Positions 15,100 to 51,132 of a stretch of 64,000 nt of DNA are shown here, piece after piece. The notes below the pieces were generated by a model, which saw only the letters and a program-made list of their open reading frames with translations, was not told the DNA's origin and made no database searches. The DNA is taken from positions 5,735,001-5,799,000 of the forward strand of contig NZ_CP027860.1 in the NCBI RefSeq assembly GCF_003015185.1. Reading direction: 5' to 3'. Every line of letters starts with the position of its first letter. Positions within the stretch are counted from its first letter, which is position 1. The translations under genes were made by a program, and so were the position numbers. The DNA is from Ahniella affigens (lineage in GTDB: Bacteria > Pseudomonadota > Gammaproteobacteria > Xanthomonadales > Ahniellaceae).

Positions 15100-15714
15100 A
15101 TGAATGCCCCTGCCACCCTGCAACTGCGCGAAATCGACTCGATGGAATGGACCCGGGCTGCGGACCAAGTCGCCGCAAAGCGCCAGCAACTCGATGCTTT
15201 CTTGAAGCAAGTCGAGCGGCGCGCGTTGCGCATGGCCGAACTCGCGACGCAGAGCCGGGACGACGCGCTGGACATCGTCCAGGACGCCATGCTCGTCTTT
15301 GTGCGCAACTACCAGGATAAGCCGAGCAATGACTGGGTGCCGCTGTTCTACCGGGTGCTCGATTCGCGTCTGACCGACTACCATCGTCGGCATCAGGTGC
15401 GCAGTCGCTGGTTGGCCTGGCTGCCAGTCGGGCGCGATCAGGATGATGATGGCGACGCGCTGGCGGAATTGCCCGATCCGGCCGACGTCGCACCGTGGCA
15501 GCGGATTGCCGACGGCGAAACCGGTCAGGCGCTGGACAGTGCCTTGAAGGCGCTTCCCGGCCGGCAACGCCAGGCGTTCCTGCTGCGCGTCTGGGAAGGC
15601 CTGGACGTAGCCGACACGGCGCGCGCCATGGGCTGTGGCGAGGGTAGTGTGAAAACGCATTTGTCGCGCGCGATGGCTGCACTGCGCACGCGTCTGGAGG
15701 CTTATCATGGCTGA
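15100..15714 (+). CDS. RNA polymerase sigma factor (xanthomonad DUF3106-operon type)
   Basis: A 204-residue sigma-70-like factor. Region 2 is seen around DALDIVQDAMLVFVRNY, and region 4 around ALPGRQRQAFLLRVWEGLDVADTARAMGCGEGSVKTHLSRA. Between them is an acidic linker. The ATG at 15100 is chosen from context; MEWTRAADQ at 15142 is an alternative. It heads an operon of four overlapping genes, an arrangement known from xanthomonads and pseudomonads. The second gene is probably its anti-sigma factor (inference). Confidence 0.87.
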   Translation: MNAPATLQLREIDSMEWTRAADQVAAKRQQLDAFLKQVERRALRMAELATQSRDDALDIVQDAMLVFVRNYQDKPSNDWVPLFYRVLDSRLTDYHRRHQVRSRWLAWLPVGRDQDDDGDALAELPDPADVAPWQRIADGETGQALDSALKALPGRQRQAFLLRVWEGLDVADTARAMGCGEGSVKTHLSRAMAALRTRLEAYHG

Positions 15715-16093
15715 CATGGACAAGGATCAGGCGTGGCTCAACTCGGTCAGACAAGAATTGGACGCCTCAGCCCGCGATCTCGACGCGGCAACGCTAAGCC
15801 GCCTGAATCGGGCTCGCCAGGCCGCGCTGGTCGAAGTTGGGCGAAAGCGGCGCCCCTGGTTGTTCTGGATGCCCGGACTCGTCGCGGCAATGGGGCTCAC
15901 GTTGGCGATTGGATTGTGGCTTCGCCCCGGCGTCGAAACCCCGTCGCCGGAACAAAGCGATCCCGCTCAGGATTTTGCGATGCTGGCGAATCCGGACGAT
16001 CTGAAGATGTACGACGATCTGGAGTTCTACGCCTGGCTCGACTCGCAGCAGTCCTCCTCGGATCCATGGTCGGATTGGGATCCGGGCACCTGA
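15707..16093 (+). CDS. Small membrane protein, probable anti-sigma factor (DUF3619-like)
   Basis: A 128-residue protein overlapping the sigma gene by eight bases. The N-terminal half is soluble and helical (SVRQELDASARDLDAATLSRLNRARQAAL). One transmembrane segment follows (LFWMPGLVAAMGLTLAIGLWL), and the C-terminal tail is acidic with the motif YDDLEFYAWLD. The N-in helix plus single membrane span next to an ECF-type sigma factor fits an anti-sigma factor. The DUF3619 label is from memory of the locus. Confidence 0.75.
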   Translation: MADMDKDQAWLNSVRQELDASARDLDAATLSRLNRARQAALVEVGRKRRPWLFWMPGLVAAMGLTLAIGLWLRPGVETPSPEQSDPAQDFAMLANPDDLKMYDDLEFYAWLDSQQSSSDPWSDWDPGT

Positions 16094-16350
16094 GTGCCGC
16101 CGAGACGCCGGCAGTAGAGCAGCCAAGCGTTGAGTTGCTCCTTTATCTGGCGGAATTTGGCGGTGAGCAGGGCGATCTGGACGACCCGATTGCGGTCGCC
16201 AAAGCGCTGGAGCGCAAGTCTGATTCCGGCCAGAATGACGGCACGTCGGCACACCAGCCTGAACCTGAGTCCTCTCGAAGTACCGCGAACCAAACACACG
16301 AAGCTACTGATTCCAACGTACCCAACGACGCTCCCCGGTTATTGCCATGA
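16066..16350 (+). CDS. Small conserved hypothetical protein nested between operon genes
   Basis: A 94-residue ORF that overlaps the gene before it by 28 bases and the DUF3106 gene by four. It contains VELLLYLAEFGGEQGDLDDP, which resembles the 'LEFLGE...D.DP' core of a small protein I recall at this position of the homologous operon in other gammaproteobacteria. The tail is hydrophilic. The start is uncertain: ATG at 16066, or a non-ATG start nearer the end of the upstream gene. No function known. Confidence 0.6.
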   Translation: MVGLGSGHLSAAETPAVEQPSVELLLYLAEFGGEQGDLDDPIAVAKALERKSDSGQNDGTSAHQPEPESSRSTANQTHEATDSNVPNDAPRLLP

Positions 16351-17033
16351 ACGCCCGTCTGATCCAACTTGCGCTGCTCCTGACCCTGCTGGTGTCGGGC
16401 TCAGTTTGGGCTGCGGGCGTAACCTGGGACGAGCTGAGTCGGGATCAGCAGCAGGTGTTGCTGCCGTTTGCGGACAGTTGGAACAGCCTTCCCGCTGAGA
16501 CTCAGGAAAAACTCCGCTTGGGTGCATCGCGCTGGAGCAAAATGAGTGTGGAGGAAAAGCAGGCGGCCAATCAGAAATTTGGTGCCTGGCGCGAGTTGCC
16601 GGATACCGAGCGACAGCGCATCCGGAACCAGTATGGCCAGTTCAAGCGCATGAGCCCGGAAGCGCAGCAACGCATTCGGCAGACTTTTGAGCGCTTTCAG
16701 AATCTGCCGGACGACGAGCGCACCAAGTTGCGCGCGAAGTTTGAGCGGATGTCGCCACGCGAGCGTCGGGCGTTTCTCGAAGGCATGCGTGCCACCGAGC
16801 GCGCGCGGGCGATGCAAGGGGCGATGCGGGGCTTGAGTGAGGCCGATGTCGGGCGCATGCGGGCGATGATGTCGGCGTTCACGCCAGCACAGCGCGAGCA
16901 AGTCAGACGTCTGGTGCAGCGGACGCCGCAGTCAGAGCATCAAGCGCTGCGCCAGAAATTGCTCGATATGACCGAGGCTGAGCGCGCGGCGTTTCTGGAT
17001 GAGCAAGTCGGGCCGGTGGGCTCGGGGTTCTGA
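16347..17033 (+). CDS. DUF3106 family secreted protein
   Basis: A 228-residue periplasmic protein with a signal peptide (MNARLIQLALLLTLLVSGSVWA). The mature part is charged and helical, made of repeats in which short 'LPxxxRxRIR' and 'MSPExRQ' units recur about every 20-25 residues. This is the DUF3106 pattern, somewhat like CpxP/Spy-type stress proteins (weak analogy). It is the last gene of the sigma operon, whose envelope-stress role would fit (inference). Confidence 0.85.
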   Translation: MNARLIQLALLLTLLVSGSVWAAGVTWDELSRDQQQVLLPFADSWNSLPAETQEKLRLGASRWSKMSVEEKQAANQKFGAWRELPDTERQRIRNQYGQFKRMSPEAQQRIRQTFERFQNLPDDERTKLRAKFERMSPRERRAFLEGMRATERARAMQGAMRGLSEADVGRMRAMMSAFTPAQREQVRRLVQRTPQSEHQALRQKLLDMTEAERAAFLDEQVGPVGSGF

Positions 17034-17622
17034 TTCATGCGGAGAACGCGGGTCTTGTTCTGACCGCGCCGTCGGGTTGACCGTTCGCGAGACTGAACCT
17101 CAGCCCGGATCAAGGCTGGGCTGACGAATCGTGGAGAGTGCCTGTCGCGCCGAAGGTGCGCTTATTCACGCATTAAACTGTCATTAACGATGCACGATTG
17201 TCACGACGGTGCACTGCGGCAAGTTGCCCTCTCCCCAGTCCTATCCCACTCGCGTGGGAGTCCAGCCGACCCTTTGGTGCGCTGATTCGCGCATCAAACT
17301 GTCAGCGACGGTGCGCAATTTTCACGACGGCACAGTGTGGCAAGTAGCCCTCTCCCCAGCCCTCTCCCACTCGCGTGGGAGAGGGAGCGCTCCCTCCCCC
17401 GCGATCGCGGGGGCGGGTCGGGGAGGGGGTTGCTTGCGATCAGGATGGGCATCAGTCGTAGATGTACTGAGTACATCAATCAACGGGTTATCGTGTGTTT
17501 GATGAGAGAGGGCGTCGGCTCGCTCACCCCGGACTTGATCCGGCTTGAGTTTGTGGTTGGTCGGCCTTTGCGGAACGATGCCTGGGTCCCCGCAGGCGGA
17601 GAATCGCGCCGAACCGACCTGC
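17034..17622. other. Intergenic gap filled largely by palindromic repeats
   Basis: No gene is supported. Bases from about 17150 to 17445 are the palindrome-rich repeat described separately. The remainder (17446-17622) shows only low-complexity fragments, including a short 'CCGGACTTGATCCGG' palindrome near 17528 that is related to the family at 31 kb. Confidence 0.6.
17150..17445 (+). repeat. Large palindrome-rich intergenic repeat, copy 1
   Basis: There are two tandem units. Each begins near 'ATTCRCGCAT', runs through a 'CACGACGG' segment and 'CCCTCTCCCCAG', and ends in perfect palindromes such as CTCCCACTCGCGTGGGAG and CCCCCGCGATCGCGGGGG. The same order of blocks is found near 25.0-25.37 kb (inverted) and 35.0-35.2 kb. 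The hairpins may act as terminators or REP-like sites (inference). Confidence 0.75.
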
Positions 17623-18030
17623 TTACCTTTCCCGACCCTTCCACCATTGCGGCCCACAATCAATGGCCAGCGCGCTAAGCACGCCCGCCGCGGCCAACAT
17701 CGGCCAACTGCCCAGCTTTGGCAGCTGCACGACAGCCAGCTCTTCTACCAAGCTCGGCCCCGCGAAAATCAAACAGCCGATCGCCATGACCAGCACCAAG
17801 GAGAGGGTCAGCATCCGCTCGGTGCGAGCCGACTCGGCCAGGTTTTCAACCTGGGTCAGGATTCTGGTCGCGAGATCGGCTGGTAGCGTCGGCATGGGCG
17901 CGACCGCGACCGCCGCATAAATACGCTGGTAGTCGCGGGCGCTCGGGTCGCGGGCGCGTGTTGCCTGCAGCGCCATGCTCTGGGCTGCTGCTTCACGTTG
18001 ACGCGACGATGGCTGGTTCGAATCGTTCAT
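17623..18030 (-). CDS. Membrane protein, probable anti-sigma factor
   Basis: A 135-residue protein with a soluble N-terminal half and two hydrophobic segments (about residues 75-95, LTLSLVLVMAIGCLIFAG, and 108-125). It overlaps the preceding sigma gene by four bases on the same strand. The order sigma factor then small membrane protein suggests an anti-sigma factor. No ZAS zinc motif (HxxxCxxC) is present, so assignment rests on context. Confidence 0.7.
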   Translation of the reverse strand: MNDSNQPSSRQREAAAQSMALQATRARDPSARDYQRIYAAVAVAPMPTLPADLATRILTQVENLAESARTERMLTLSLVLVMAIGCLIFAGPSLVEELAVVQLPKLGSWPMLAAAGVLSALAIDCGPQWWKGRER

Positions 18031-18590
18031 GCGATGGCTCCGGCGTGTTCCAGAAGCGACTGGCGCAGGCGCGCACGGGCCCGGAACAGGTAACTCTTGA
18101 CCGTGCCGATCGGGAGTTCGGTGATCTGCACGATCTCTTCCAAGGGTAATTCATCCAGGTGGAACAAAGTGAGCAGCGTGCGCTGAATCGGCGGTAGCTG
18201 ATCCATGGCCGCGGCAACATGCTGAAACAGCTCGGCATCTGAAAAGGCCTGTTCCAGATCAACGTCATCGGCAAGATGGGACAGGGCTTCATCCTCGTCA
18301 TGGCTGCCGGCATCGTCGATCGGCAGACGCTTCTTTTGCAGAAAGCGTCGGGCCACCGAGAACGCTACCTGGCCGACCCAGGTCGACAACGCGCTCTCAA
18401 AGCGAAAATTCGGCAGATTGCGATACACCTGCAAAAATGCCTCCTGGCTCAGTTCGTCGGCATCGTCCGCGTGGTGCACCATACGCACAATGACATGCCA
18501 GACCAGGCGCTGATAGCGCGCGAGCAGGCGCGCGAACGCCCCGTTCTTCTGGGCGAGCACGGCGCTGACAAGTTCCTGGTCGGTCTCCAT
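18027..18590 (-). CDS. ECF-family RNA polymerase sigma factor
   Basis: A 187-residue RpoE-like sigma factor. Region 2 contains HADDADELSQEAFLQVYRNL followed by STWVGQVAFSVARRFL. Region 4 contains LPPIQRTLLTLFHLDELPLEEIVQITELPIGTVKS with its helix-turn-helix. The ATG at 18590 is the natural start. It is co-transcribed with the membrane protein downstream and divergent from the small membrane protein gene at 18812, which may be one of its targets (inference). Confidence 0.92.
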   Translation of the reverse strand: METDQELVSAVLAQKNGAFARLLARYQRLVWHVIVRMVHHADDADELSQEAFLQVYRNLPNFRFESALSTWVGQVAFSVARRFLQKKRLPIDDAGSHDEDEALSHLADDVDLEQAFSDAELFQHVAAAMDQLPPIQRTLLTLFHLDELPLEEIVQITELPIGTVKSYLFRARARLRQSLLEHAGAIA

Positions 18591-18811
18591 GTCACGATAT
18601 GAGACCAGAAAGCGAGATCAGGTTGCAGTCGGATTTAGCCTCTTCCGCAGGACGCGATTGCTAGCGTTGGCTTGCTGGCATCAGCCTTCGAAAAGCCGAA
18701 AGAGGCCTGCAACCTTTTTCGAAACCGTTGCCTCAGATAGGCCAAGTCGGACTTCCGGCCCGCCAGGCAGGATCGCCTGGCCCCTCTTCAACCCAACATG
18801 GAGCCCTCAAG

Positions 18812-19135
18812 ATGGACTTTGGCAATCTCATCCCGATTTCGTTGTTTGTGTGTATTGTCGTGGCGATCAAGATCATCGCCGAATCCCGGCTGCGCCGGCG
18901 TCTGGCGGAAACGCATGCCAATGAGGAACTCATCAAGGCCATGCTGATGGCGGACGAAAAAGCTCGCCAAATGAGCGCCTTCAAATGGGGTACGGTGCTG
19001 GTGTCGCTGGGCGCCGCCTTCGGTCTGATCGAAGCATTCCGCTTGCGCTCGGATTCGCCGGGTACCTGGGGTTTGCTGCTCGCTGCTGCGGGTGCGGGCA
19101 TGCTGGGCTATCACTTCTTGGCCAGTCGGCGCTGA
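18812..19135 (+). CDS. Small inner-membrane protein (DUF6249-like)
   Basis: A 107-residue protein with three hydrophobic segments: an N-terminal one (LIPISLFVCIVVAIKIIA), then a charged stretch with two predicted helices, then a pair (WGTVLVSLGAAFGLIEAF and WGLLLAAAGAGMLGYHFL). The ATG at 18812 has a GGAG about eight bases upstream. It is divergent from an ECF sigma operon, an arrangement often seen for small membrane proteins of this type. Function unknown. Confidence 0.75.
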   Translation: MDFGNLIPISLFVCIVVAIKIIAESRLRRRLAETHANEELIKAMLMADEKARQMSAFKWGTVLVSLGAAFGLIEAFRLRSDSPGTWGLLLAAAGAGMLGYHFLASRR

Positions 19136-45684: not shown

Positions 45685-47370
45685 ATGTCCGCTTTTCTGC
45701 TCTTGTGCCTCCCCCCATCCGATGCCCGCGCGGACGCCGTTCGCCGGGCCCGACTGTGGTGGCACGCGTATGGCCAGCGCCCGGGTGGGCCGGCCGATCG
45801 CAACCCTTGCCGCCAGTACGAGTATCCCGAGGCCGCATTGCTGGTTTGGTCGGGCCATGCATCGTGGTTGCATGAGGTCGATGCAAAGCGCGTGCGCATG
45901 CGCGTCTCCAGCCAGCCGTTGGCCGCCGACAATGGCCAAACCAGCGCCCATGCACTCGAACTGACGCGCGACGAGGCCGGCGCGTGGACGCTCGGCCGCG
46001 GCTGGCATGCTGAGCGGAACGTCTATTTTCAGGGCCAGGCTGGCCGGTTTGCGGCGGGCAGTTCGCCACGCCTGCTGCTGGCGGGGTTGGGCTTGCCCAT
46101 TGCTGAGAACCCGGATGCCGTTGCCGCGTTTTTTGCCCATCGTCCCCTCGGTCCGCCGGCATGTTTCTTTCAAGGCGTCCAATGCCTGCGTCCAGGGACC
46201 CGCCTCAGCGCCGATCCGACTGGCGCATTTCGGATCAGCGAGCCGGCGCCCATCAACGTTGAGCCAATTGCCGCCCGGACCGACCGGGACTGGTTGCAGG
46301 CCTTGGATCAGGCGCTTCGCCGTGCGTTGGGGGACGAGCATCGGCCGGGGTCGCTCGGTCTGATGCTAAGTGGCGGCATCGACTCCAGCTCGCTGGCCGC
46401 AGGCCTTGCCGCGACCCGGCAACGCGCGCAATTGTTCACTTGGCAACTGCCACTCGCGCGTTCGGACGAATCCGCATTCGCCGCCAAGACGGCCGCTGCG
46501 CTTGGACTGCCATTGACCGTCGTGCCGGCCCATACCACCCCATTCGCGAATCTGGACACGCTACCGATCAATCCGGATGCACCGCTGGCGAATCCCTATC
46601 GGGCTTTGAACGACGCGTTGATGCAAGCCGCCACCGATTCGGGGGTAACCACGCTTTTGTCCGGCAATTTTGGTGATCATTTATACCCGGAGCCCCAACT
46701 CGCCTGGACCTCCGCTTGGCGCGGGTCCCGCTACGGACTCGCTGCGAGCGCAGGTTGGCACAAGCTGTCCAGGCGTCTCAGGGCCGGGCCCTGGTGGCCG
46801 CGTTCGTGGCAGTCCCAACCGCTCGAATCAAGTCCGTTGACACCTTTTGCTGCTGAACTGCTGACGCCGCTGCCGCCGATCGATGTGCCGGATTGGCCGA
46901 TCGAGGATCACAGTCGGTTGGTCGATATTTTTGCTGCGGCCCCGCGCTTGGATGCTGAAGGGGCCTGGTACTTCGGCTCGGCGTACCCCCTGGAACTGCG
47001 TTTCCCATATCGACACCAGGCGCTCCTGGATTTGGCCTTGCAGTGGCCGGTGCATGTTTCTGAGCGACATGGCCAGCGCAAGTGGCTGACGCGCCGATGG
47101 CTGAACCAAAAATTGCCCGATGCGATTCGGCTGCGCCCCAAGTCGGGCAGCCTGGCGCCTTGGTTTTGGCACGGTCTGGCTGTGCATCGCGACGCGGTGT
47201 TGGCGCGCCTGAACCAACCCAATGCCCGCTGGAGCCGGTATCTTCAGCCCGAAACAGTGCTAGCCTCTATCGATCGGGCGGGATCGGAAGCCGCCGGTCT
47301 CCACGTCTGGCAAGCACTTTGCTACGAAATTTGGCATGAGACCGCAATTCGTGACGGAACATTGCGGTAA
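45685..47370 (+). CDS. Asparagine-synthetase-like lasso peptide cyclase candidate
   Basis: A 561-residue protein. The C-terminal half is an asparagine-synthetase domain with PP-loop LSGGIDSSSLAAG (229-236), LLSGNFGDHLYPEP and the late RHGQRKWLTRRWL segment. The N-terminal half resembles a class II amidotransferase remnant, but no catalytic Cys follows the start Met, so glutamine hydrolysis is unlikely. This is the pattern of lasso-peptide C proteins, which adenylate an Asp/Glu side chain and close an isopeptide ring (family knowledge). The candidate precursor gene begins 31 bases downstream. A TTG at 45667 is an alternative start. Confidence 0.82.
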   Translation: MSAFLLLCLPPSDARADAVRRARLWWHAYGQRPGGPADRNPCRQYEYPEAALLVWSGHASWLHEVDAKRVRMRVSSQPLAADNGQTSAHALELTRDEAGAWTLGRGWHAERNVYFQGQAGRFAAGSSPRLLLAGLGLPIAENPDAVAAFFAHRPLGPPACFFQGVQCLRPGTRLSADPTGAFRISEPAPINVEPIAARTDRDWLQALDQALRRALGDEHRPGSLGLMLSGGIDSSSLAAGLAATRQRAQLFTWQLPLARSDESAFAAKTAAALGLPLTVVPAHTTPFANLDTLPINPDAPLANPYRALNDALMQAATDSGVTTLLSGNFGDHLYPEPQLAWTSAWRGSRYGLAASAGWHKLSRRLRAGPWWPRSWQSQPLESSPLTPFAAELLTPLPPIDVPDWPIEDHSRLVDIFAAAPRLDAEGAWYFGSAYPLELRFPYRHQALLDLALQWPVHVSERHGQRKWLTRRWLNQKLPDAIRLRPKSGSLAPWFWHGLAVHRDAVLARLNQPNARWSRYLQPETVLASIDRAGSEAAGLHVWQALCYEIWHETAIRDGTLR

Positions 47371-47401
47371 GATCTCAGGCTGATCCGGGAATCCCTTCAC
47401 C

Positions 47402-47575
47402 ATGACCAAGTTGAGCCAAATCGCAGCTGATCCTCAGGTGACGCCTGAGCGTCAGGCCTATGTCTCCCCTTGCATGACCGACCTTGGCACGCTGCGCGAC
47501 CTGACATTGGGCGCCTCCCCTGGCGTGGGCGACTCTGGCGGCGCCGGCACGTTCAAGTGCCCAGGTTGCCCCTGA
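47402..47575 (+). CDS. Putative lasso-peptide precursor (57 residues)
   Basis: A short ORF between the cyclase and the kinase genes. Residues 1-36 form a leader with Tyr20-x2-Pro23, then Leu29-Gly30 and a Thr two positions before the predicted cut (motif DLTLG), matching the Y-x2-P ... G ... T-x recognition pattern of lasso leaders. The predicted core starts at Gly37 and has 21 residues: Gly1, Asp8 for an eight-membered Gly1-Asp8 lactam ring, a flexible Gly-rich tail, and CPGC near the C-terminus (Cys17, Cys20). No similarity search was possible. Ring size and cut site are inferred. Confidence 0.72.
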   Translation: MTKLSQIAADPQVTPERQAYVSPCMTDLGTLRDLTLGASPGVGDSGGAGTFKCPGCP

Positions 47576-47674
47576 TCCATCGTTTGGACCGCGCGCATCG
47601 CGCCGGGCGCGTCGCTCGCAGCAGCGCGATCTCAACCACTGTTTTCGCTAATCCTGGCTCTGAGCGTTGCCGGC

Positions 47675-48532
47675 ATGTTCTGGCTGATTGACCGCGGACG
47701 CTCAGGCAGCAGCCTGTTCGTCCATGATATCGCCGGACAACCCGTCGCCTGCCCCTGGCCGCTCTGGGCCAGCGCCCAGCCGATCGCGGCGCCCAACATC
47801 CCATTCGAATTTGCTGAGCCGACGCGCTATCTCCGCTGCGACGCCCAACTCGGCGGCCGCACGCGCGCACTGACGTTTGGCGAAAACGGGGGCGGCCAAA
47901 CCGTCGTGCGCTTTGATCATGGGCTCGAGCTCTGGATCAGCGACGCGATCGTCGTGGCACAAGTGAGCCAAACCACCGCCCAGGGCGACGTGCAAGAAGC
48001 GTTGTTAGGGCCGGGATTGCTCAGTCTGCTCGCGACCAAAGGTCTGTTTGCGCTGCACGCGAGCGCGATCTCCGGGCCGTTCGGGCTCGATCTGCTGTTG
48101 GGCCCCTCAGGACAAGGCAAATCGACGCTCGCGCGCGTCGCCAGCCAGCAGGGTTGGGCGCGATACGCCGACGATCTGGTCGTGCTGAATTCGGCTGGTG
48201 AATTTGCCGGGCCGTTTCCGCAGCTCAAGCTGAATCCGCCGTTCCTGCAAGGCCCAAACCAGCCGACGCTTGGTCGATTGCTGTGGCCGGAGTATCACGC
48301 GGGCCCACCCGGATTGGTCGCGCTCCCGCCTGCCGAAGTGCGCAAACGCCTGATTCGCGACAGCGTTGCTGCGTTGATCTTCGCGCCCGCGCAGTTGTCA
48401 CTGCATCTGAACTGGGTCAGTCGTTTGAGCCAGACCGTGCCTGGGTTCCGACTTTGCCGCCCGCACGTCGACATCGACACGATGCCGTTGGCCACGGCCG
48501 ATGCCTTGAGCGTGCTGCGCACCGAGCGTTGA
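47675..48532 (+). CDS. HPr kinase/phosphorylase-like protein of the lasso locus
   Basis: A 285-residue protein. The C-terminal half has a P-loop LLLGPSGQGKST (Walker A 143-151) preceded by FALHASAI, with an RYADDLVVL acidic motif, as in HprK-like proteins. Such homologues occur in lasso clusters where they phosphorylate the peptide (paeninodin-type, family knowledge). Here the core ends in Pro instead of Ser, so an internal Ser/Thr would be the target, if any. No regulatory HprK N-terminal domain is seen. Start uncertain; the frame is open back to the precursor stop. Confidence 0.75.
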   Translation: MFWLIDRGRSGSSLFVHDIAGQPVACPWPLWASAQPIAAPNIPFEFAEPTRYLRCDAQLGGRTRALTFGENGGGQTVVRFDHGLELWISDAIVVAQVSQTTAQGDVQEALLGPGLLSLLATKGLFALHASAISGPFGLDLLLGPSGQGKSTLARVASQQGWARYADDLVVLNSAGEFAGPFPQLKLNPPFLQGPNQPTLGRLLWPEYHAGPPGLVALPPAEVRKRLIRDSVAALIFAPAQLSLHLNWVSRLSQTVPGFRLCRPHVDIDTMPLATADALSVLRTER

Positions 48533-48558: not shown

Positions 48559-49554
48559 CTACTGGTGCAAACCGTCGATCTCGATCAGCAAGTCGGCTCG
48601 GCAGATGTCGCCACCGACAATGATCCAGGGCGTGTTCGGCAGTGCCGACATTAGCCGCGTCACGCGGTCGAGATGCTCCCGGTGCCGCAAATACACCTTC
48701 AGCACGCTCTGTGCGCCGAAACGCACGGGCAGGCGGTCGTGAAATCGCCGTGCATTCTGAATCAGCGAGTTCAGATTGCTCAGCGTTTCATGGAACTGTG
48801 CATCGAGATCGCCGACGTGATGGCTTTCGTGGCCGACCACACTGGCGGTGCCAGAGATCAGCAAAGGGCCCTGGCTCAGCAGATGGGCACGCGAGAAACT
48901 CGGGCTTGTGGGCCCGTAGCAACGTGGATAGCGATAGGCCGACACTTGCCTGGGATTCTCGATATGGCGGCCGGCTGCGCTCGCAGCGAGCCAATACACC
49001 TGGAGGCACGGCGTGTCGTCCTGACGCCCGATGGCAGTCGCTGCGGGTAGCTGCTCGACGCGAAAATCGCCGAGGCCGCTGGCTCGGCCCGTGCAGAAGT
49101 GGCGATATCGCTCGGCATCGCCCTGGCCTTCATTGATGCGCGAAAAATAATTCCAGTAACGCAGAATTTGGCTGCCCGGACGTTTTGCCATGAAATCGAT
49201 AATGCGCTGATAAGCGATCTCGGCCGCCCGCTCGATTGAGCCGGCTTCGCCCTCGTCAATTTCGATGACGCCAAACAGAAACCGCCCATCATCGGCAAAA
49301 CGCAACGCGCCGTCTTGATGATGTGCCACCGGGCAATCGGTGACCCACAGCTCACAGAGACCAGGCTTTTGGGCGAGTTCCGGCGAGCGCGCCCAAATCG
49401 AAAACCCACTATCGATTGTCAGCGCGCCGGTGGCCGGACTCGACTCGTGATAGCGCACCGCCGCGAGCAGCGAATGCGCCGGCACGTCGGCAGGATCGCC
49501 GTAGCGCACCAGAAGGGACGGTGCGGGAAACAAGCGCTCGGCGGCCTCAGACAT
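48559..49554 (-). CDS. xanB2: XanB2-type chorismatase (FkbO/Hyg5 family)
   Basis: A 331-residue enzyme that splits chorismate to 3- or 4-hydroxybenzoate, precursors of xanthomonadin and of ubiquinone (known for Xanthomonas XanB2). Family features are the RidA/YjgF-like two-domain fold with ILRYWNYFSRINEG, the GDAERYRHFCTGRA block and the C-terminal PWIIVGGDICRADLLIEIDG. Length is about the same as XanB2. It overlaps the halogenase gene upstream by eight bases, so the two are one operon. Confidence 0.88.
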   Translation of the reverse strand: MSEAAERLFPAPSLLVRYGDPADVPAHSLLAAVRYHESSPATGALTIDSGFSIWARSPELAQKPGLCELWVTDCPVAHHQDGALRFADDGRFLFGVIEIDEGEAGSIERAAEIAYQRIIDFMAKRPGSQILRYWNYFSRINEGQGDAERYRHFCTGRASGLGDFRVEQLPAATAIGRQDDTPCLQVYWLAASAAGRHIENPRQVSAYRYPRCYGPTSPSFSRAHLLSQGPLLISGTASVVGHESHHVGDLDAQFHETLSNLNSLIQNARRFHDRLPVRFGAQSVLKVYLRHREHLDRVTRLMSALPNTPWIIVGGDICRADLLIEIDGLHQ

Positions 49555-50947
49555 GGTCTTGACTCGTCGTGCCGCCCAAAAACGCCACCTTGGTCTGGCG
49601 CTTCAGAAAGCGCAGATGCGGCCATTGCTCTTTCCACATCGCCAACGCGTGCAGATAGTAAATGACCTTGAACAACAGCAGGCGCTTGCGCACGCCGCCA
49701 TCGCGAAACACGTCGCCAGCCAGCATCGAAATCAGGCCTTCTTCCAGACGCCAGATGTTGCGCGGATTCGCGAACAAGTGGCGCATGGCGGGTGACGTGA
49801 AGCGTTCGATAAACCACGAAAACGTTTTGATGCCATGTTGCAGGGTTCGCCAATAGTGCTTTTGCAAGGCTGGCTCGCGGCTTGGTTCTCGCAACACCTG
49901 ATCGACGAGTTCGGCGCCCAGCTCGGCGCTGTTCATGGCGAGGAACACGCCGCTGGAAAAAATCGGGTCGACGAACGCCGAAGCGTCGCCCACGCTGATC
50001 CAGCGCGGCCCGGCGACCGCGCTCAGGGTGTAGCTGTAGTTGCCGGTGGCGTGATGGTTGCCGACAATTTCAGCGGCCTCAAGTCGAGACCAGACATCCG
50101 GAATGCTGCGCAGCGTGTCGAGCAAGAATTCGGTGCCGCGCGTCGTCCTTTGCTTCAGGTACTCCGGGTAACACACCGCCCCAACACTCATCAGGTCGTC
50201 TGGCAGCGGAATCAGCCAGACCCAGCCGTTCGGAAATCGATAAATGCTGATGTTGCCCGCATCGTCTCCTGGTCGCCTGACGGCGCCACGGAAATGTGCG
50301 AATAGCGCTGCGCTCTGGTGCTTCTTGTTCTTCTGCTTGAGCTTCAGTTGGTCGCCCATCAGGGTATCGCGACCGGTGGCATCGACTAAATATCGTGCCC
50401 GGATCGCCTCGACACGACCATCGGCGAACCGGACCTGGGCCCGAACGCCGTCCAAGTCGAACGCATCCGGCTGCACCCGGCCACCGATTTGCACCGCCAC
50501 GCCCGCGCGCCTTGCGTTGTCGAGTAGCACCGCGTCGAACTGATCCCGGCGCACCTGCAGGGCATGGGGCCACGTGGGATTCAGTGAGCGGGCAAAATGA
50601 AACACGTTGTAGCCGCGTTCGTTGGCAGCCGGAAAATCGGCGCCGCGTTTGATCACGCCAATCGCCTCGACCGCTTCCAGCACGCCCAGACGCTCCAGAA
50701 TGGGCATCCCCATCGGCAGCAGCGATTCACCAATGTGAAAACGCGGAAACGCGTCCTTTTCGCAAAGGCACACCCGCCAACCCTTTCGGGCCAATAACGT
50801 GGCGATCGTGCTGCCAGCCGGTCCGCCCCCTGCAATCAGGACATCAAATGCGGTCTCGGCGGCGATTGCAGCGGCGGTATCGGCACGGGTTCTGGCAGTA
50901 TTTTCAGCGGCGGGCACAGGATCAAAATCGGGGCAAATAATGCCCAT
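49547..50947 (-). CDS. Flavin-dependent halogenase-like oxidoreductase of the pigment block
   Basis: A 466-residue FAD-binding protein. The dinucleotide loop DVLIAGGGPAGSTIATLLARKG is followed by FPRFHIGESLLP, as in CmlS-type halogenases, and by GWVWLIPLP, which matches the W-x-W-x-I-P halogenase motif. Homologues sit in xanthomonadin clusters, whose pigments are brominated (family knowledge). The ATG at 50947 is chosen; a longer start overlaps the divergent promoter region. It is divergent from the ACP gene. Confidence 0.85.
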   Translation of the reverse strand: MGIICPDFDPVPAAENTARTRADTAAAIAAETAFDVLIAGGGPAGSTIATLLARKGWRVCLCEKDAFPRFHIGESLLPMGMPILERLGVLEAVEAIGVIKRGADFPAANERGYNVFHFARSLNPTWPHALQVRRDQFDAVLLDNARRAGVAVQIGGRVQPDAFDLDGVRAQVRFADGRVEAIRARYLVDATGRDTLMGDQLKLKQKNKKHQSAALFAHFRGAVRRPGDDAGNISIYRFPNGWVWLIPLPDDLMSVGAVCYPEYLKQRTTRGTEFLLDTLRSIPDVWSRLEAAEIVGNHHATGNYSYTLSAVAGPRWISVGDASAFVDPIFSSGVFLAMNSAELGAELVDQVLREPSREPALQKHYWRTLQHGIKTFSWFIERFTSPAMRHLFANPRNIWRLEEGLISMLAGDVFRDGGVRKRLLLFKVIYYLHALAMWKEQWPHLRFLKRQTKVAFLGGTTSQDHV

Positions 50948-51132
50948 GATACACTTCACGCACTGAATGCGCGCCGCGGCACCCCGGGCTGACTTGATTG
51001 TTGGAGCTTGCTCCACGACAAATCGGTACGAGGCCCAGTCGGGCGGGCGCCGAATGCGAGCCCGGCAGACCCATCTGCGTGCTGTGTCGGTGCTGCCCCT
51101 ACGGCGCCAAAACTCGAATCGCTTTTAGGTGC

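Follow-up and report, generated by a model that had tools for sequence, protein, structure and literature searches.

On the plus strand of a 64-kb stretch of DNA (the whole sequence analysed, here called the window), we identified what we judge, with a probability of about 0.82, to be the C-A-K part of a lasso-peptide pathway, the other two required genes of which, B1 and B2, have left the cluster and would act in trans. The genes, their conservation and co-occurrence, and the catalytic motifs were read directly from the sequences compared. Within positions 45685-48532, genes for a cyclase (C), a precursor of 57 aa (A) and an HprK-like kinase (K) follow one another in that order, with a minus-strand gene on either side (Table 1). 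These are the three ORFs that a preliminary description of this DNA had listed, and all were recovered at the same positions, in the same order and on the same strand. It had also reported that the locus lacks B1 and B2, an absence that was upheld and that we extend to the whole 64-kb window, in which profile searches for the two genes returned nothing convincing (best E=0.06). No exporter gene was found at the C-A-K locus. On the minus strand, window 48559-51016 holds two genes, one chorismatase-like (FkbO/Hyg5 family) and the other resembling FAD-dependent halogenases/oxygenases, with which the pigment block named in the preliminary description starts.

Table 1. Coordinates of the C-A-K genes, the unlinked B genes and the C25 peptidase genes near C-A modules (window positions unless a locus or contig is named)
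Feature	Position	Strand	Basis
C: macrolactam cyclase of lasso type, asparagine-synthetase homologue lacking the nucleophile Cys2, 561 aa	45685..47370	+	Pfam, alignment, tree
A: putative lasso precursor, 57 aa	47402..47575	+	other-family profile, NF033521 near-match, conservation in relatives
A leader, 36 aa	47402..47509	+	Tyr-17, Pro-14, hydrophobic residue (Met) at -12, LG, Thr-2
A predicted core GASPGVGDSGGAGTFKCPGCP, 21 aa	47510..47572	+	predicted ring Gly1-Asp8, Ser3 predicted phosphosite, Cys17/Cys20 in tail
K: HprK-like kinase, 285 aa	47675..48532	+	motif residues, AF2 model; start possibly slightly upstream
Putative B2, 132 aa	C1:4,563,011-4,563,301		PF13471
Putative B1	C1:2,011,510-2,011,704		PqqD family
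C25 genes near C-A	L020:1106-7576, L019:1572-5936, L021:1699-5892, L024:2323-7101, L025:9404-14092, L106:5959-9999, L098:484-4890, L103:6428-12664 and 15288-19001, L134, L119:7061-11386, L139:5527-7998

The cyclase, precursor and kinase of the locus

The C protein matched the Pfam family Asn_synthase (E=3.5e-31). When C was aligned with its relatives, the SGG/SSG-x-DS loop and the GxxKW region were invariant, and Cys2 was absent from all aligned rows. By tree analysis, C was placed within a cyclase clade of 30 rows, together with the proteins of genomes G002, G003 and G005 (98/95), and most cyclases of this clade are found with precursors of the type described below. E. coli AsnB and the AsnB-type protein of the window's own genome formed a separate clade of seven rows (100/98). 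The deep split between cyclases and AsnB proteins had a support of 93/98, slightly under the strict mark, and the window's C sits on a long branch. Judged by alignment and tree together, C is a lasso-type cyclase distinct from AsnB; assignment to the ordinary AsnB enzymes was rejected on the absent Cys2 and the tree position.

The A protein scored 16.5 bits against the NCBIfam lasso leader domain NF033521, just under the 19-bit cut-off. A profile trained solely on precursors from other GTDB families was run against the 1363 stop-to-stop segments of the window, and found window 47384-47572 at E=1.5e-18, with the runner-up in the window at 0.33; a chance ORF was ruled out on this result. Such precursors were present in 36 of 399 genomes in an order-wide search, and the named relatives carry the taxon labels Lysobacterales, Lysobacteraceae, Rhodanobacteraceae or Xanthomonadales. 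The signature of the family consists of Y..P, a stretch of Gly-[DE], the cleavage-site motif T-[LMI]-G and then G-x-[ST]-x(4)-[DE]-S. The leader of A reads YVSPCM, LG and T-2, with both the RRE-binding leader motif and the Thr at -2 present, and the spacing of its Tyr-17, Pro-14 and -12 residues equals that of the known RRE-binding motif, Tyr(-17)/Pro(-14)/Leu(-12) (PMC10368454). Core position 8 is Asp or Glu, and core position 3 Ser or Thr, in 21/21 listed family precursors; the window core has Gly1, Ser3 and Asp8. By these sequence features, A is a member of a conserved Lysobacterales precursor family, with a predicted cleavage site and a predicted Gly1-Asp8 ring.

The C-terminal Ser of paeninodin-type cores is absent here, the window core ending in Pro, and none of the listed family cores ends in Ser. 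The core ending CPGCP (window 47558-47572; L020:9616-9630) was seen here and in G002 only, and such a tail could carry a Cys17-Cys20 disulfide.

The preliminary description had read the locus as lasso-like, and this reading gains support from the leader motif, the Thr at -2, Gly1 and Asp8, the cyclase clade and the C-A-K order kept in relatives. It had made that reading depend on the 57-codon ORF being conserved in relatives that keep the cyclase, and on the cyclase not falling among ordinary AsnB enzymes. When the three-gene set was compared across relatives, the C-A-K order was conserved and the ORF was kept alongside the cyclase, which itself lay outside the AsnB clade.

Sequence matches of K were weak (HprK_rel_A, E=0.01), and a PDB sequence search with K yielded nothing useful. 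Its AF2 model (pLDDT 84.6) resembles structures of the PEPCK/HprK superfamily in the PDB. The full BsfK catalytic motif is present in K with identical spacing (H128, G143, G146, G148, K149, S150, D166 and D167, the BsfK counterparts being H148, G163, G166, G168, K169, S170, D186 and D187; PMC10368454). The residue that BsfK phosphorylates is Ser3, in a core of 21 aa for which a Gly1-Asp8 ring is predicted (PMC10368454). Given the complete motif, the PEPCK/HprK fold and a 21-aa core with Ser3 and Asp8, phosphorylation of Ser3 is predicted here too, at somewhat better than even odds. Since homology begins ~30 bases 5' of the first ATG, the true start of K may lie slightly upstream.

Unlinked B genes and gene order across genomes

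The window's own genome (G000) comprises two contigs and is estimated to be 100% complete. A genome-wide search for PF13471 and PqqD-like proteins returned one standalone B2 and one B1, both candidates being identified by homology and as the only ones in the genome. The putative B2 is the sole standalone PF13471 protein (E=9.8e-19), scores 58.2 bits against the NCBIfam model NF033537, 'lasso peptide biosynthesis B2 protein', the cut-off of which is 33 bits, and retains the Cys and His that are invariant across aligned B2s; a PDB sequence search with B2 gave nothing useful, and no structure convincingly matched the B2 model in Foldseek. The putative B1 is the sole PqqD-family protein above the Pfam cut-off (43.1 vs 23.4 bits), and among the NCBIfam models it matches the lasso PqqD chaperone best, with a score below that model's cut-off. 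Both genes are on the same chromosome as C, B2 at a distance of 1.22 Mb and B1 of 3.77 Mb, unlike the gene clustering that is usual, though not strictly defining, for lasso systems. No other precursor or lasso-type cyclase was found elsewhere in G000.

The B1 of G000 was sister to the cluster-borne B1 of G002 (85/85), followed by those of G005 and G007, and in the B2 tree G000 was not resolved with G002. The C, B1 and B2 proteins of G000 are all on long branches, by which relaxed selection is possible. B1 adjoins a sulfotransferase-like gene, and the neighbourhoods of B1 and B2 are both free of lasso genes. No PQQ genes were recognised among the neighbours of B1; a PqqC search gave no match in G000, but none in any control genome either. 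At L016:8542-10338 (G000:C1 about 4.5615-4.5633 Mb), an S41-peptidase-like gene ends ~24 bases before the start of B2, on the same strand, and the two may be co-transcribed.

In G002, a close relative from the window's family, the whole set is contiguous as C-A-K-B2-B1 within about 3.5 kb, and seven genomes outside the window's family (G012, G018, G019, G023, G028, G032 and G039) are clustered likewise. The simplest history would be an ancestral C-A-K-B2-B1 cluster from which B2 and B1 moved out in the window's lineage, where C-A-K, B2 and B1 now occupy three places. In G042, a single contig, C-A-B2 are together and a divergent B1 lies 258 kb off, while in genus g13 A-K-B2 form one locus, C a second and B1 a third. 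G008 carries three cyclases along with four precursors, spread over three contigs, and a single K-B1-B2 locus on a fourth; G067 carries two C-A pairs and a single copy each of B1 and B2, which lie on contigs other than those of C. Because draft assemblies can mimic separation, weight was placed on two near-complete genomes, G000 and G042, as well as on cases distant from contig ends (G003, G067, G147 and G008-C35). C-A-K-B1 are together in G004 and G005 (L019:10401-10892, L018:2815-3306); no standalone B2 was found in these two genomes, which are incomplete (86% and 67%). At L089:3192-5185 and L092:4988-6883, the unlinked B1 of g13 is preceded by two small genes and an ECF sigma factor gene. 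B1 stands behind the ECF sigma factor gene in G147 and in the same order in G016, an arrangement shared by two g13 genomes that suggests shared regulation.

Of 39 genomes with a lasso-clade cyclase, 30 carry both B1 and a standalone B2, as against 0/26 genomes without such a cyclase (Fisher p=7.5e-11, which overstates independence, as the compared genomes are related). The group of 26 is a convenience set made up of the first genomes listed without a match and of genomes with AsnB-clade hits. This co-occurrence supports a functional link of B1 and B2 with the lasso-clade cyclase. Within the window's family, B1 was found in 8/8 genomes with C, and the two genomes without C have neither B1 nor a standalone B2. 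Other PqqD-like genes of the order, some with a PF13471 gene, adjoin members of a different asparagine-synthetase-like clade (L099, L123, L124 and L116) and probably represent separate RiPP systems.

Genes for large proteins with a C25 (gingipain-type) peptidase domain at the C-terminus lie beside or a few kb from C-A modules in four GTDB families; the linked modules are those of G002, G003, G004, G005, G007, G036, G126, G148, G162 and G172. In G008, three of four C25 genes are beside C-A modules, and both modules of G067 are C25-linked. G000 has four C25 genes, none of them within 100 kb of C. The peptidase could be the peptide's target, its activator or its degrader, all of which are possible. 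We tentatively put forward, at a little less than even odds, that the Lysobacterales phosphorylated lasso family ('LGGSxGxGDSG' precursors) is a distributed one, in which a single B1-B2 set would serve several unlinked C-A modules in trans and many modules would be built with a secreted C25 peptidase as functional partner.

Alternative readings and the proposed pathway

The preliminary description had offered two alternatives, namely that B functions are supplied elsewhere in the genome, or that the locus represents a new, minimal arrangement with a different way of removing the leader. The distant B2 and B1 argue for the former, and the latter did not hold up. A minimal lasso system, in which C, K or a general protease would remove the leader, accords with a window that has neither B1 nor B2, but both genes are present in the same genome, on which ground B-independent maturation was rejected; moreover, relatives of both adjoin C-A-K in the intact clusters, and both track the cyclase across genomes. 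We regard such a system as very improbable. It is also improbable, to a slightly smaller degree, that the distant B1 and B2 serve other pathways and coincide with the locus by chance. B2 does lie directly behind the S41 peptidase gene and B1 beside the sulfotransferase-like gene, in neighbourhoods that have no lasso gene; however, no other B1, standalone B2, precursor or lasso-type cyclase was found in the genome, and the co-occurrence of B1 and B2 with the cyclase is strong.

Two further readings concern the product and are each unlikely, though somewhat less so than a chance coincidence of the B genes. None of the five ORFs is disrupted, B2 and K retain their catalytic residues and C its ATP-loop, A is as conserved as the precursors of relatives, and dispersed gene sets are stable throughout genus g13, all of which speaks against a decaying remnant whose cluster broke up and whose peptide is no longer made; such decay would fit the long branches of C, B1 and B2 in G000, and single-copy, dispersed genes with no exporter at the locus. 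Alternatively, the product might be an unthreaded (branched-cyclic) macrolactam or mainly a phosphorylated linear peptide. Sequence cannot reveal threading, HprK-type kinases with separate RREs also modify non-lasso linear polyphosphorylated peptides (PMC13381572), and the cores of relatives are short (17 aa) with few bulky tail residues, whereas the conserved lasso-clade cyclase, Gly1, the constant acid at position 8 and the lasso-family B2 make up a lasso signature.

For the preferred reading, a lasso pathway completed in trans, we infer each enzymatic step, the threading and the service of this B1 and B2 to this precursor from established lasso biochemistry, in which B1 binds the leader, K phosphorylates the precursor with the aid of B1, B2 cuts after the residue following Thr-2 and C closes the ring (PMC10885120, PMC9266682, PMC10368454). 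The unlinked, PqqD-like B1 (about C1:2.0115 Mb) would bind the YxxPx(M/L) leader, and K, aided by B1, would phosphorylate core Ser3. The unlinked B2, a transglutaminase-like cysteine protease (C1:4.563 Mb), would cleave after Thr-Leu, and C would then activate Asp8 with ATP and join Gly1 to Asp8 around the tail. The end product would be a 21-residue lasso, possibly with a Cys17-Cys20 disulfide in its tail. Its predicted mass is 1802.77 Da, or 1800.76 Da with the disulfide; the corresponding phosphorylated forms would have 1882.74 and 1880.72 Da.

Comparison with known systems

Genome mining detects lasso peptides through clustered A, B and C genes. Pathways with their essential genes in two or three places may therefore be overlooked, or miscalled as incomplete or B-independent. 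Among the genomes compared here are natural examples of a single leader-processing set that apparently serves several precursors in trans, and they point to a connection between lasso peptides and C25 peptidases that can be tested. In the open-licence literature, no published lasso case with unclustered B1/B2 was found, subscription papers being outside the scope of that search.

The phosphorylated lasso cluster bsf of Bradymonas sediminis FA350 likewise has separate B1 and B2, an HprK-type kinase with the same motif and spacing, a YxxPxL-type leader at -17 to -12 and a 21-aa core with Ser3 and a predicted Gly1-Asp8 ring (PMC10368454). It differs in being clustered and in having Ile at -2, whereas here position -2 is Thr and the distances to B1 and B2 are 3.8 and 1.2 Mb; phosphorylation and cleavage were shown there and are predicted from sequence here. 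Paeninodin-type systems (PadeK, ThcoK, SyanK; PMC9266682) share A, separate B1 and B2, C and an HprK-like kinase, but their genes are clustered and the kinase targets a C-terminal Ser, whereas the core described here ends in Pro and has Ser3 and Ser9. Unclustered lanthipeptide proteases (PMC8960859) are also RiPP leader-removal enzymes encoded away from their cluster; they belong to another RiPP class and protease family, and here the leader-binding protein is unlinked too. As in pandonodin, a class IV lasso peptide with a tail-tail disulfide (PMC13352647), the two tail Cys residues could pair. In components and chemistry, these pathways correspond to known phosphorylated lasso systems; their unusual aspects are that essential genes have dispersed repeatedly and that a single B1-B2 set is apparently shared.
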